From Candidatus Ventrenecus avicola (GTDB lineage: Bacteria; Bacillota_I; Bacilli_A; RF39; UBA660), in NCBI GenBank assembly GCA_018711945.1, contig DVHP01000129.1:1-37291 (forward strand): DNA of 37,291 bases, given 5' to 3'. The notes under the pieces are model-generated. The model saw only the letters and a list, made by a program, of their open reading frames with translations, was not told the DNA's origin and ran no database searches. The number at the start of each line of letters is the position of its first letter. Within the stretch, counting starts at the first letter, position 1. Made by a program: the position numbers and the translations under genes. Shown piece by piece: positions 9,712 through 15,375 of this stretch.

Positions 9712-9738
9712 AAGAAAAACTATGCTTTCGCATAGCTT
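9712..9738 (-). terminator. Intrinsic terminator of herA-like gene
   Basis: On the minus strand CTATGC (9735-9730), GAAA tetraloop, GCATAG (9725-9720), then a T-rich run. The stop codon of the herA-like gene overlaps its first arm. Confidence 0.85.
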
Positions 9739-11674
9739 ATATAGTCGCACTAGCAGGCATTTCTATATTAGTTGGTGCCGGCATCATTTCTGTGCTTGTT
9801 GGCATAACAGGCTGCCCCATCATTCCTCCATTCATCGGAATAGTATCATTAGGCATCATAGGCTCTCCACCACCAGTATTTGGCATACTAGGCGGCGTAT
9901 TGGGTTGTGCATTTTGTATAACCGGAGTAGTCCAGCAACCAGAAACATCACAGTTAGAGGAATATGGAGGTGGATCTGGCATATTCATTTTAACAATCAT
10001 TGGTATTTTAAATGCACTTCCGAATGCTACACAAGTACCAGGCTGTAACGTTTTTTGTTTCTCAATAACGTCTTGACTAATATTTGGAAGCATCTCTTCA
10101 ATATACTTCAAATCCTTTGGGTGAGTCATCTTAAAGATTAAGAAATTCGATATCTGAGCAATAACCGTATCACTAATCTCTACTGGCCGTTGAGAAATTA
10201 CACCCAAAATAGCCCCGTATTTACGTCCTTCCTTCGCAATTCTATCAAAAATATTATAACCAAGCAAGAACGTATCATTATCTTTTTGAATATAACGGTG
10301 TGCTTCCTCTAAAATTAAATGCATTGGCATCGAAGCACGATTTTTCAAAGTCTTAGTATAATCAAATAAAATTCTACATACAATCTTTACGATAACCTTA
10401 GCATAAACGTCATCTACATCTTCTAAGTTAATATTAATAATTTGAGCTTTCTTACCATTCATATTTACTAACGTTTTGACAAAATCTTCACTAGTTACAT
10501 ATCCAGGATTCGTAAAATAAGTACCCACTTTAGTATTTAAAATACTAGATAAACGAACCTTTATCATAATCGCGTCATCATAGACTTTACTGTTGTTTTG
10601 AAATCCTTCACTAATTAAAGTAAATTCCAAAGCTTTTGAAAAATCTAACATCGAATAAGAATAAATAGCTGGTTCTTTTGTTTCTTCTAATTCATCATCT
10701 ACATGTTTTAAAATATAATCCGTAATTAATACAGACTCTCCAAAATTACCGTTGGAATCGATTTCAAAACATTCAGAGAAACTTCTAGAATAACCGAGTC
10801 CAGCAATTCTAGAGTCAAAGTTAAAGTCTGGTGTATGACATACTTCAATAATAGTAAATATTTCATTCTTCTTATGAGCGGTTGTCTGATTACTAAACAA
10901 AATAGCCAAAAGAGCTTTTGCAATCAAATGGTTCTTATAACGTTCACTCTCTTCATTATTTTGACTAAAGATTTTAGCCAGTCTAATAGTTCTTTCAATA
11001 ATTGGTAACTGACTATGACTACTCGCTTGTAAAAGTAAAGCCATGTCATCTAATTTTAATAAAGAAACAGGTATTTGAAGAGGAAAATCAGTTGCTTCTT
11101 GTTGATTAGAAGTAATAAATTTATAACAATACTTTGGATTATACTTACTAATATCTCTTAAAGCATTTTTATACTCTCCATAAGCATCAAACAAGAAAAG
11201 ATTAGCATTCTCATTTACAACATCTTTATCACCAAAAACATTTTGGATAATTCTAGAAATACCATGTGTTTTACCAGCACCAGAGTTACCACAAATAAAG
11301 AAGTGATTAGAAAAGAACGAATTAATCCTTGGATAAACCGTATAATTCTTATAAATTGCACTAACACCTAATTCAAAAGACTTATTGTCTTTTGTACCAA
11401 TCAGTTCTTTTAATTCCGCTTCGTTAATAATTCGAATCTTACTAGAAAGAAGTGGTTTTCTAATAACACCATTAACATACCTTCCATCAATATACTCACC
11501 TAAAAAACGAATTTTAATAATATCCGGATTAATTTCTGAAATCTCTCCTAAAATTCTCTGATTTGGTGCTTCAAATATAACATGGACGTTCATAAAATCC
11601 ATAGATTCATCATTTTTTAAAGTATTCTCTAAGTGTGCAACACTTTCACTAATAAAAATAATTTTACCAAACAT
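9737..11674 (-). CDS. HerA-type ATPase (DUF87 / FtsK-HerA superfamily)
   Basis: 645-residue HerA-like motor ATPase. An N-terminal HAS-barrel-like beta domain (about residues 1-100) precedes the ATPase core, with Walker A GNSGAGKT (129-136), Walker B LILEEAH (453-459), the RKYG arginine-finger region and VISQRP motif. Archaeal HerA pairs with the nuclease NurA, and bacterial HerAs occur with Sir2 or nuclease partners in defence islands; no such partner is adjacent here. The last 80 or so residues form an unusual Pro/Met/Asn/Thr-rich low-complexity tail. The start at 11674 is chosen over an ATG six bases earlier because GAGGG is 7 nt upstream. The cellular role is uncertain. Confidence 0.82.
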   Translation of the reverse strand: MFGKIIFISESVAHLENTLKNDESMDFMNVHVIFEAPNQRILGEISEINPDIIKIRFLGEYIDGRYVNGVIRKPLLSSKIRIINEAELKELIGTKDNKSFELGVSAIYKNYTVYPRINSFFSNHFFICGNSGAGKTHGISRIIQNVFGDKDVVNENANLFLFDAYGEYKNALRDISKYNPKYCYKFITSNQQEATDFPLQIPVSLLKLDDMALLLQASSHSQLPIIERTIRLAKIFSQNNEESERYKNHLIAKALLAILFSNQTTAHKKNEIFTIIEVCHTPDFNFDSRIAGLGYSRSFSECFEIDSNGNFGESVLITDYILKHVDDELEETKEPAIYSYSMLDFSKALEFTLISEGFQNNSKVYDDAIMIKVRLSSILNTKVGTYFTNPGYVTSEDFVKTLVNMNGKKAQIININLEDVDDVYAKVIVKIVCRILFDYTKTLKNRASMPMHLILEEAHRYIQKDNDTFLLGYNIFDRIAKEGRKYGAILGVISQRPVEISDTVIAQISNFLIFKMTHPKDLKYIEEMLPNISQDVIEKQKTLQPGTCVAFGSAFKIPMIVKMNMPDPPPYSSNCDVSGCWTTPVIQNAQPNTPPSMPNTGGGEPMMPNDTIPMNGGMMGQPVMPTSTEMMPAPTNIEMPASATI

Positions 11675-11697
11675 AATCATACCCTCTTAATGATAAA

Positions 11698-11741: not shown

Positions 11742-12467
11742 TTAAGCGAAAATGATTCGATTGATCGCATGGGATACTAAATTACTAATAATTTCAAGAT
11801 CATTGACAATCGTGTGTTTACAAAAAAAGGAATCATGAGTCCTTAGTAAAGCCGGATATCCAATGGACAACACGGGAATATGAAACGTTTCAAATGTAAT
11901 TTCTTTATTACTCCGTAGTTGATCAGCAAAAACAATTCCACAATCATTGATTTCTAAAGACATATCCAAATATTTTTCTTCCTTCGTAATAAAACTATCA
12001 ATTAAAACGATCACGTCTGGCTTTAAATATCCGACAACCATTTCAATAAGTCGAAAAGAAGAAATTCCCGTTTTAGAAGTCGTTTCAGGCGTAAATAAAG
12101 CCACTTTCGGAATCGTTAAAAAATCATTATATTGATTGGTTGCAACAAGACGTTCTAATACTTTAGAGCCAAAAGAATCACCAATAATAGAAGAATTACC
12201 AAGCCCAATAATTAAAATTGTTCCGCCTTTATGATATTTTCTTAAAAATGTTTTAAATGTCTTAGTAAATACTTTTTCTAAAACAAGGGAATCTTGATAC
12301 AGGACTGTCGCATCAAAAGAAAGGGTAAAATGATCTCCCTTGCGAATATCTTTTTCATCCTCTTTAATTTTATAATGTTTAATTTCAACATTTCTTTCTT
12401 TTTTAGTTGCAATAAGTTCCTCTGAATCTAAAGATTTCCCAGCATCTAGTAAAAAATTTTGTTTCAT
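11742..12467 (-). CDS. gpr: Divergent, shortened germination protease (GPR, peptidase family A25)
   Basis: GPR degrades small acid-soluble proteins during spore germination. This 241-residue protein keeps the GPR core: IIGLGNSSIIGDSFGSKVLE (usual VGLGN...TPDALGP), SKTGISS (usual GxTGIE), KPDVIVLIDSF (usual KPDxVIAIDAL) and FHIPVLSIGYP (usual LGIPVIAIGVP). The two catalytic aspartates of the family correspond to D97 and D157. Bacillus GPR is about 370 residues; here the N-terminal propeptide region is reduced and the PGSGVGN segment is replaced (ADQLRSNK). Start 12467 follows GGTGAGG. It lies downstream of the STAS-like gene. Family membership is fairly secure; activity is uncertain. Confidence 0.78.
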   Translation of the reverse strand: MKQNFLLDAGKSLDSEELIATKKERNVEIKHYKIKEDEKDIRKGDHFTLSFDATVLYQDSLVLEKVFTKTFKTFLRKYHKGGTILIIGLGNSSIIGDSFGSKVLERLVATNQYNDFLTIPKVALFTPETTSKTGISSFRLIEMVVGYLKPDVIVLIDSFITKEEKYLDMSLEINDCGIVFADQLRSNKEITFETFHIPVLSIGYPALLRTHDSFFCKHTIVNDLEIISNLVSHAINRIIFA

Positions 12468-12482
12468 ACGCCTCACCATACT

Positions 12483-12512
12483 TAGTATGGTTTTATCAAT
12501 AAAAATTTATGA
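12483..12512 (-). promoter_or_regulatory. Possible sigma-G-like promoter of gpr
   Basis: On the minus strand TCATA (12512-12508), 18 nt, CATACTA (12489-12483): a perfect match to CATnnTA and 4 of 5 to GnATR. The -10 also forms half of a hairpin (CCATAC-TAA-GTATGG) next to the ribosome-binding site. The leader would be only about 10 nt, which weakens the call. Confidence 0.3.
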
Positions 12513-12513
12513 A

Positions 12514-12741
12514 TTATTTAATTAAAAAATCGCCAGAAAATGTTTTAGTAAAATCCTGTTTCATTTGATTTAAATAAAACCGATTATGAAAGATATGATG
12601 GTGATTATTTATAACAACTCGATCCACACCATAGTCCTCCACAACCCGAAAAATTCTAGCCTTTAATAAATGATACTCTTCTAATGATAATCCATCTGCT
12701 ATATCAATATATAATGTTTCATTTTGATAATACATATCCAT
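12514..12741 (-). CDS. 75-aa small protein, possibly a STAS-like fold
   Basis: Short gene with a good start (AAGGTGA, 4 nt, ATG). The pattern beta (TLYIDIADGL), helix (SLEEYHLLKARIFRVVEDY), beta (VDRVVINN) resembles the first half of SpoIIAA-type STAS domains, including the Leu-rich helix followed by a V-hydrophobic-N strand. The conserved phosphorylatable DSSG motif is absent (HNRF instead), as is the second half of the domain. It lies 46 nt upstream of gpr on the same strand and may be co-transcribed. The fold assignment is my inference from pattern only; the function is unknown. Confidence 0.5.
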   Translation of the reverse strand: MDMYYQNETLYIDIADGLSLEEYHLLKARIFRVVEDYGVDRVVINNHHHIFHNRFYLNQMKQDFTKTFSGDFLIK

Positions 12742-14189: not shown

Positions 14190-14759
14190 CTATATTTTAT
14201 TTTCTTCTAAATTATTTCGCTCTAAAAACTCATAAATTTCATTTGCTTCTTGACTACCAACTAATTCATCTTGCAAATCTCCATTTTCAAAATACATCAC
14301 ATAGGGTGTATATTGCATGTTTTGCTGCAAGTCCTCATGAATTGCAACAAACTCCAAGTAATCTTCATTTGTCGAGTCATAGAAACTGCGATTAATATAA
14401 TATATGGAAATATTATACTTAGTAAGTTCCGTTTTGAGTAAAGGAACGTACTTTTTGCAGGTATAACAGTTTTCTCGCATCGATAATAATAAAAAACTTT
14501 CTTGTGCTTCAATCTTCTCTAAAACCTCTTTCAAATTTACCTCTACAAAAGGAAAATAATCTAAACTTGTAGAATGTTCTGATCGAGAAATACTAGTATT
14601 TGGGTTAGGCTGTTTTTTTAAAAAACGCATGGCAATTTGATCACCAAACGCCAAAAATAGTAAAATAAGAAGAAAAAGCACACAGTAAAGAGCATCTCTT
14701 CCTTTCTCACTTAAAATAATTTTATCTTTTCCATTAATTCGGTTAATTTTCTTCGGCAT
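14190..14759 (-). CDS. Membrane-anchored thioredoxin-fold protein with CxxC
   Basis: 189-residue protein with a basic N-terminus, one membrane segment at about residues 23-40 and an extracytoplasmic thioredoxin-like domain from about 75. The redox pair is Cys98-Tyr-Thr-Cys101 (ENCYTCKKYVPLLK), followed further on by YTPYVMYFENGD, which supplies the cis-proline. This predicts a thiol oxidoreductase on the outer face of the membrane. It overlaps the preceding thioredoxin-fold gene by 17 bp, and frr follows 13 nt later. The pair lies between tsf and frr, where pyrH is normally found. The substrate is unknown. Confidence 0.7.
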   Translation of the reverse strand: MPKKINRINGKDKIILSEKGRDALYCVLFLLILLFLAFGDQIAMRFLKKQPNPNTSISRSEHSTSLDYFPFVEVNLKEVLEKIEAQESFLLLSMRENCYTCKKYVPLLKTELTKYNISIYYINRSFYDSTNEDYLEFVAIHEDLQQNMQYTPYVMYFENGDLQDELVGSQEANEIYEFLERNNLEENKI

Positions 14760-15375
14760 CGGTCACATCTCCTAGATAACTTTCCATCATGACTCCCAAC
14801 TCTACCATCTTCTTTTGACGTACGTCTTGTGTCCAATAATCAGCAACAGTCACATCACCGCTAACAATGGCAGTTTCGTCATCATACATTGTAACAACTC
14901 CATCTTTAATCATAATCATAGAAGGTGCATACAAGTCAATTTCACCTGTATCCAAAACAGGAAGATATGCTTCTAACAATCGGACGATATTATTATAGTA
15001 ATAATTGTCATTGGTACGATCATTTAAAAAATTATAATACCAAATTTCTTCAATCCCATAACGTTTTGCCACTTCATTTAAAATATCAGCATAAGCATGA
15101 CTCCACTCATTATCCGGAAAAGCAAAAAAAACAATCCCACTACCTGTATTCATCAGTTCTAATACTTCTTTTGCTGTTTTATAAACATATAAATTATCGC
15201 TAGTAATACCAAATTCTTGAGTAAAGCTTTCTTGATCAGTCAATTTACGAATTGGTGCATTAAAATTCTTTGTTCCAAGGTAAATAAATGCAGCAAACAG
15301 AAAAATAAAACTAATAGTATAAAACACTTTTTGATACCAAGGCATTGGAGGCTTTTCCTTAATTTTAATCATCAT
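14743..15375 (-). CDS. Membrane-anchored thioredoxin-fold protein lacking the redox cysteines
   Basis: 210-residue protein with one membrane segment at about residues 16-33 and an outer domain. The domain resembles a thioredoxin fold (GIVFFAFPDNEWSHAYADILNEVA, then APSMIMIKDGVVTMYDDE with the expected Pro-Ser strand). The position of CxxC is taken by N-E-W-S and the protein has no cysteine, so it should be redox-inactive, perhaps a binding or scaffolding partner of the CYTC protein whose gene overlaps it. The start at 15375 follows GGGAG by 6 nt. It has its own promoter after the tsf terminator. Confidence 0.6.
   Translation of the reverse strand: MMIKIKEKPPMPWYQKVFYTISFIFLFAAFIYLGTKNFNAPIRKLTDQESFTQEFGITSDNLYVYKTAKEVLELMNTGSGIVFFAFPDNEWSHAYADILNEVAKRYGIEEIWYYNFLNDRTNDNYYYNNIVRLLEAYLPVLDTGEIDLYAPSMIMIKDGVVTMYDDETAIVSGDVTVADYWTQDVRQKKMVELGVMMESYLGDVTDAEEN

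Follow-up and report, generated by a model that had tools for sequence, protein, structure and literature searches.

Germination protease (GPR) and the alpha/beta-type small acid-soluble proteins (SASPs) are usually treated as inseparable: the SASPs coat and protect the DNA of the spore, and at germination they are destroyed by GPR, which until late remains a zymogen. We take the structures 1c8b and 7c4x to be the GPRs of B. megaterium and Paenisporosarcina, both of MEROPS family A25, and Asp127 and Asp193, from mutagenesis by the Setlow group, to be the catalytic pair of the B. megaterium enzyme. In the developing spore canonical GPR, which is made as a zymogen, activates itself at low pH, and at germination it starts the breakdown of SASPs (PMC4533522). 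According to PMC8452069, its cleavage site in SASPs is 'EIA', and the promoter of gpr is employed as a sigma-F promoter in C. difficile; the title of a reference in that paper reports that another spore protein, YyaC, cleaves SASPs in C. acetobutylicum. Sporulation has been predicted for RF39, the lineage of Candidatus Ventrenecus avicola, in a study that covers gpr and further genes for sporulation in these orders; it considers SASPs to be essentially lost in Erysipelotrichales and beyond (PMC10868615).

Here we describe a short A25 gene in the window, by which we mean the whole 37,291-nucleotide stretch of DNA analysed, from Candidatus Ventrenecus avicola. We read it, with a probability of about 0.6, as a gpr orthologue that was reduced once to its catalytic core, in the ancestor of a clade that lacks SASPs, and that likely acts as a forespore or germination protease on a changed substrate. 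No description of a SASP-independent gpr was found in the literature searched.

Results

A short member of peptidase family A25

The initial annotation described a shortened germination protease with the GPR core, and Pfam, phmmer and an AlphaFold2 model all identify the product as a 241-residue A25 homologue. Pfam Peptidase_A25 (PF03418) matches it with E = 6.3e-18 and 65.3 bits, above the gathering cut-off of 27.8, and phmmer aligns residues 18–208 with the GPR structures 1c8b (2e-15) and 7c4x (1e-14), while the NCBIfam GPR equivalog TIGR01441 gives 91.7 bits, below its cut-off of 120. In equivalog score, propeptide, PGSGVGN block and accompanying SASPs the protein falls short of GPR proper, yet it belongs to A25. 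An alternative ATG at 12479, which would give 245 residues, lies only 4 nt past a sigma-G-type -10 element; given this spacing and the ribosome binding site in front of the ATG at 12467, the 241-residue product is likelier. The features of the locus are collected in Table 1.

Table 1. Positions of the short gpr, its signals and its neighbours in the window.
Feature	Position	Strand	Basis or remark
Short A25 peptidase, propeptide-less, SASP-independent gpr orthologue, 241 aa	11742..12467 (ORF runs 12467 to 11742)	minus	profile, alignment, model, tree
Ribosome binding site GGTGA	12473..12477	minus	precedes ATG 12467
Sigma-G-type -10 CATACTA upstream of short gpr	12483..12489	minus	type kept in 28/30 congeneric copies
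Weak -35-like TCATA, 18 nt upstream of -10	12508..12512	minus	inferred; consensus GHATR, many congeners GCATA/GTATA
Asp97 codon, equivalent of B. megaterium GPR Asp127	12177..12179	minus	phmmer alignment; invariant in 48 homologues
Asp157 codon, equivalent of B. megaterium GPR Asp193	11997..11999	minus	phmmer alignment; invariant in 48 homologues
FADQLRS (residues 180-186) in place of canonical PGSGVGN block	11910..11930	minus	alignment; pLDDT <50 at residues 182-185
HerA-like ATPase, Pro/Met-rich tail	9737-11680	minus	directly downstream of gpr
75-aa ORF	12514-12741	minus	directly upstream of gpr
Membrane-anchored thioredoxin-like gene	14190-14759	minus	DUF6568/PedC-like (weak match)
Membrane-anchored thioredoxin-like gene	14743-15375	minus	DUF6568/PedC-like (weak match)

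Catalytic residues and fold are retained

Both catalytic aspartates, recognised at first inspection, are indeed kept, and Asp97 and Asp157 align with Asp127 and Asp193. The equivalence was counted on the phmmer alignment, where the two residues pair with 128 and 194 of the 1c8b chain; a construct offset of +1 turns these into Asp127 and Asp193 of the 370-residue protein. GLG, Gly100, Thr110, Gly134, Gly177 and Gly203 are likewise invariant across the 48-sequence alignment, and all 31 short forms (31/31) carry both aspartates together with the GLGN, T-G-I and I-G-x-P motifs. The immediate surroundings are changed, from TPDALGP to xGDSFGx at Asp97 and from DALA to DSFV at Asp157.

The AlphaFold2 model of the short protein (pLDDT 87.8, pTM 0.88) was compared with the PDB by Foldseek, and the only matches at E < 0.001 are three GPR chains (7c4x_A 1.5e-16, 1c8b 2e-14), with a query-normalised TM of 0.75–0.78 to GPR structures. 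A model that failed to superpose on GPR, or aspartates lying away from the active site, had been named as outcomes that would overturn the assignment, and neither was seen.

The short form thus resembles GPR in its fold (Foldseek 2e-14 to 1.5e-16), its two aspartates, GLGN, the I-G-x-P strand and the C-terminal helix, and, in sister lineages, in the position of its gene between rpsT and spoIIP. Unlike GPR, it has no propeptide, autocleavage Asp, PGSGVGN or internal stretch of ∼80 aa, no SASP in the genome, and a sigma-G-type promoter instead of the sigma-F-like one of the family. YyaC/DUF1256 (PF06866) is a related compact spore protein family, which the canonical GPRs of the window's bacterial family cross-match; identity of the short protein with YyaC was rejected, since PF06866 does not match it even at E = 1 and it has the gpr locus and a clear A25 relationship.

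Propeptide, PGSGVGN block and an internal stretch are lost

In the 48-sequence alignment the propeptide is missing save ∼3 residues ahead of the autoprocessing site. The reading frame begins one residue before the equivalent of RTDLALEA, and a propeptide with the autoprocessing site R-T-D↓L-A is absent; the N-terminus, M-KQNLFLDA (M-KQNFLLDA in the window), aligns without gaps with R-T-D-L-A-L-E-A of canonical forms. At the P1 position of autoprocessing, Asp is found in 94% of the full-length set and Asn in 96% of the window's genus. The loss of most of the propeptide had been correctly noted, but the greater part of the length difference, which had gone unmentioned, comes from ∼80 internal residues that are missing after the IGxPT strand and before the last helix.

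The reported lack of the PGSGVGN block was confirmed by alignment. The block varies little or not at all among the full-length GPRs aligned; in the genus it is replaced by FADQLRSN or YADALKDN, which overlaps the sole segment of the model with pLDDT <50, and sister short forms outside the genus have PGSxLxxN at this position. These sequences show in which order the changes came, PGSGVGN being partly lost in the sister genera and fully in the window's genus, and with its loss catalysis could be impaired or changed.

Two mini-GPRs of 264–291 aa (L089 in G044 and L092 in G049) have, like the short form, lost the internal stretch, in their case independently. Unlike the short form they keep PGSG and the propeptide region, in which an R-[TF]-D-L site is present, coexist with weaker-scoring SASPs and fall outside the short clade. 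A tie between loss of the internal stretch and loss of SASPs found no support, given these two SASP-bearing lineages.

The short forms are a single, vertically inherited clade

The short form, with no other A25 gene, is present in 31 of 36 relatives in the window's genus and in the window's own genome; in G006 it is split over two contig fragments. It also occurs in G048 and G056, which represent two other genera, and diverged versions (L047–L052) are found in six named assemblies labelled as Bacilli, Tenericutes, Erysipelotrichaceae and Mycoplasma MAGs. A phylogeny of A25 peptidases, proposed at the outset as a check, places all short forms in one clade with support of 100/99 when the trait columns are excluded. 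A second, canonical GPR elsewhere was rejected, there being no other PF03418 match in the genus or the window's own genome, as was a horizontal or phage origin, given no phage match, the single clade and the gpr synteny.

In five short-form loci (L047, L048, L049, L051 and L093) the order rpsT-gpr-spoIIP-(110-aa gene) is that of the full-length gpr of the family, and lepA comes next after the 110-aa gene wherever the locus is long enough. Because these sister lineages share the locus with full-length gpr, we regard the short form as a gpr orthologue that was inherited vertically and remodelled. The window's genus retains the pair gpr-spoIIP, with rpsT elsewhere than beside it; in the window and the two relatives closest to it spoIIP, too, is no longer beside gpr. 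Its place in these three is occupied by the gene of the HerA-like ATPase; in almost every other congener the gene behind gpr is spoIIP.

No gpr was found in G043, G057 and G019. At L175 (G043:C5), in a genome 96% complete, gpr is cleanly deleted and rpsT and spoIIP are 90 bp apart; G043 retains SpoIVA, SpoVA and the small peptide described below. G057 and G019 keep spoIIP and the peptide, and gpr is not beside spoIIP.

Among close pairs dN/dS is 0.035–0.20, which indicates that the short protein is under purifying selection, and the frame is open and of the same length in 31/36 species at identities down to 55%. A truncated assembly or a pseudogene was rejected on these grounds.

No recognisable SASPs in genomes with the short form

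Every one of the 17 genomes of the window's bacterial family that have a PGSGVGN-type gpr carries SASPs (PF00269). Of 11 genomes with such a gpr in other parts of the class, 10 do, and the one that does not is 55% complete. The suggestion that the short protease might act on unusual SASPs was to be checked by co-occurrence: no recognisable alpha/beta SASP was found in any of the ∼40 short-form genomes searched (0/37 in the genus, none in G048, G056 and the six named assemblies). The SASP gene lies directly behind thiI in 9/9 SASP loci examined in the family; the thiI locus was recovered in 30 genomes of the genus, including the window's own (L114), and wherever the contig continues no SASP follows it, so that the absence is more than bin incompleteness. 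Set against the published view of SASPs as essentially lost, the clear PF00269 matches in 17 genomes of the family suggest that KEGG-orthologue annotation may miss SASPs.

Most of the genus keeps SpoIVA, SpoVA (SpoVAC/AEB) and a sigma-G-like factor; for the last, no score reaches the curated cut-off, in SASP-bearing relatives either. Sporulation is therefore probably retained, in agreement with the prediction for RF39. The sigma-G-like factor was not found in the window's own MAG (77% complete) and was found in its nearest relatives, G012 and G030. A loss of the zymogen through loss of DPA uptake found no support, SpoVA being kept in most of the genus.

The short gpr has a sigma-G-type promoter

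A sigma-G-type -10 precedes the short gpr in 28 of 30 copies in the genus (expected 1.2) and the full-length gpr of the family in 1 of 14 (Fisher P = 2.7e-8, an optimistic value because related sequences are not independent). Full-length gpr promoters in the family instead have GCAAATA-like and GGNAAAAATA-like elements, with the sigma-F -10 consensus in 4/14 (expected 0.75). By the same test, SASP genes of the family have the sigma-G-type -10 in 10 of 12 cases, and from these counts the short gpr appears to have moved to a SASP-type promoter. The initial description of the protease as unregulated is plausible in the sense that there is no zymogen, propeptide and P1 Asp both being gone, but the promoter argues that the gene is probably regulated by timing.

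A small peptide occupies the old SASP site

Behind thiI the genus has a conserved small ORF of 34–58 aa, mostly ending in [ST]GPxC[LI], with a sigma-G-type promoter in 26/28 cases. Its length across SASP-less relatives is 34–66 aa; a longer version occurs in sister short-form lineages, for example MRKHILLYYKSFDGTKCSEMDRKINECFNEYGYNMESNRRKTVTLDETSCKTGPNCLNRRQNQVKK, and versions are also present in G043, G056 and G057, which are SASP-less, SpoIVA-positive genera. Wherever both flanks are present the neighbours are thiI and ackA. The peptide family has no name in Pfam. In the window's genome the peptide is encoded behind thiI at L114:2931-3050 (G000:C72), with equivalents at L105–L133, L135, L137, L140, L141, L146 and L153–L155. 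The gene is usually divergent from a DUF1540-type gene, small, cysteine-rich and with a sigma-G-type promoter of its own (L145, minus from 1620; L135–L148), which is also found in several SASP-bearing genera, there without an adjoining peptide.

The core of the peptide aligns with the segment of SASPs around the GPR site (KYE↓IANEFGVNLG versus RYEYMNDYGYNID and KNEFFNEYGYNLN). An hhalign comparison of peptide and SASP gives 16.9, whereas permuted columns average 9.0 (SD 2.2; 3/300 as high). With the peptide profile, SASPs reach 4.9 bits on average and shuffled SASP sets 0.03 at most. Because the likeness was noticed before testing, these values, and the one for the genus peptides below, are optimistic. 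From sequence alone the homology is weak (p ∼0.01, tested after noticing): the 'EIA' of the GPR site is not literally kept (E-[YFC]-[MFC]-N), and the core is eroded in the genus. The short peptides of the genus were identified by synteny; they align with the longer family at an hhalign score of 24.5 (2/200 permutations as high), and searching permissively with a profile of the long peptide missed them, the matches at E 0.01–0.3 being at chance level. Resemblance, identical locus and promoter type together make it likely, if not proved, that the peptide is a degenerate SASP. A simple DNA-binding substitute for SASPs was rejected, since the charge of the peptide, from -4.5 to +5.6, is not conserved.

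Discussion

In this clade a spore programme seems to persist in the absence of recognisable SASPs, and yet the GPR core is held under selection with its zymogen switch stripped away. We propose that SASPs decayed in the ancestor of the clade; with no SASPs on the DNA that could be destroyed prematurely, a safeguard in zymogen form would have become superfluous, and the need for latency would have vanished. The propeptide and the SASP-fitting parts may then have been lost and expression moved to late-forespore timing, such that the short form would be made in the late forespore in a directly mature-like state, with no zymogen step. It has probably remained an endoprotease of the Asp type, now with a different substrate. 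It could use Asp97/Asp157 in the forespore or at germination to cleave something other than a classical SASP, and the best candidate would be the sigma-G-promoter peptide between thiI and ackA. A more specific version, that the SASP gene decayed to the 34–66-aa peptide, often with its [ST]GPxC end, and that a zymogen-free late-forespore GPR with a rebuilt substrate loop processes this peptide in replacement of the SASP/GPR pair, strikes us as quite unlikely in its entirety.

The substrate might instead be an unrelated protein of the forespore or of germination, the peptide at the SASP site being an independent sigma-G gene. This is doubtful but conceivable: the peptide does not need GPR in G043 and G057, which keep it without gpr, its range of charge means that DNA binding is not required, and its homology to SASPs is weak by sequence. 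On the other hand, peptide and SASP share the thiI-x-ackA locus and the promoter type, and peptide and short gpr are both confined to SASP-less relatives.

Whether the protein cleaves anything at all bears on a further reading, in which proteolysis is lost, the GPR core serves binding or scaffolding in the forespore, and the two aspartates are kept for structure or metal binding; the HybD-type fold, related to that of GPR, binds metal. The lost PGSGVGN block and autoprocessing site, the substitutions around both aspartates and the lineages in which no gpr was found would suit such a role, which we nevertheless think rather unlikely in view of the strong purifying selection and the invariance of both aspartates and the three motifs in 31 short forms. 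It is highly improbable that the gene is a relic, jobless after the loss of SASPs and eroding along with sporulation. The small genomes, the SASP loss itself, the complete loss of gpr in some relatives and the separation of spoIIP from gpr in the window and the two relatives closest to it point that way, but the dN/dS values largely refute decay, and the open, same-length frames, the conserved and newly sigma-G-type promoter and the retention of SpoIVA, SpoVA and the sigma-G-like factor also speak against it.

On our preferred reading of a reduced, SASP-independent protease, two questions become testable in this group of gut bacteria, whose small genomes retain genes for spore formation: what GPR does once SASPs are gone, and how far the protection of spore DNA can shrink. 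GPR is also an unsafe proxy for SASP-based spores in metagenome surveys.

Neighbouring genes

The 75-aa ORF directly upstream of gpr is kept in 17 of the examined loci (75–91 aa); it has no Pfam match, and its sequence pattern looks like that of a tiny STAS-like protein. The two adjacent membrane-anchored thioredoxin-like genes are conserved beside frr in the genus.
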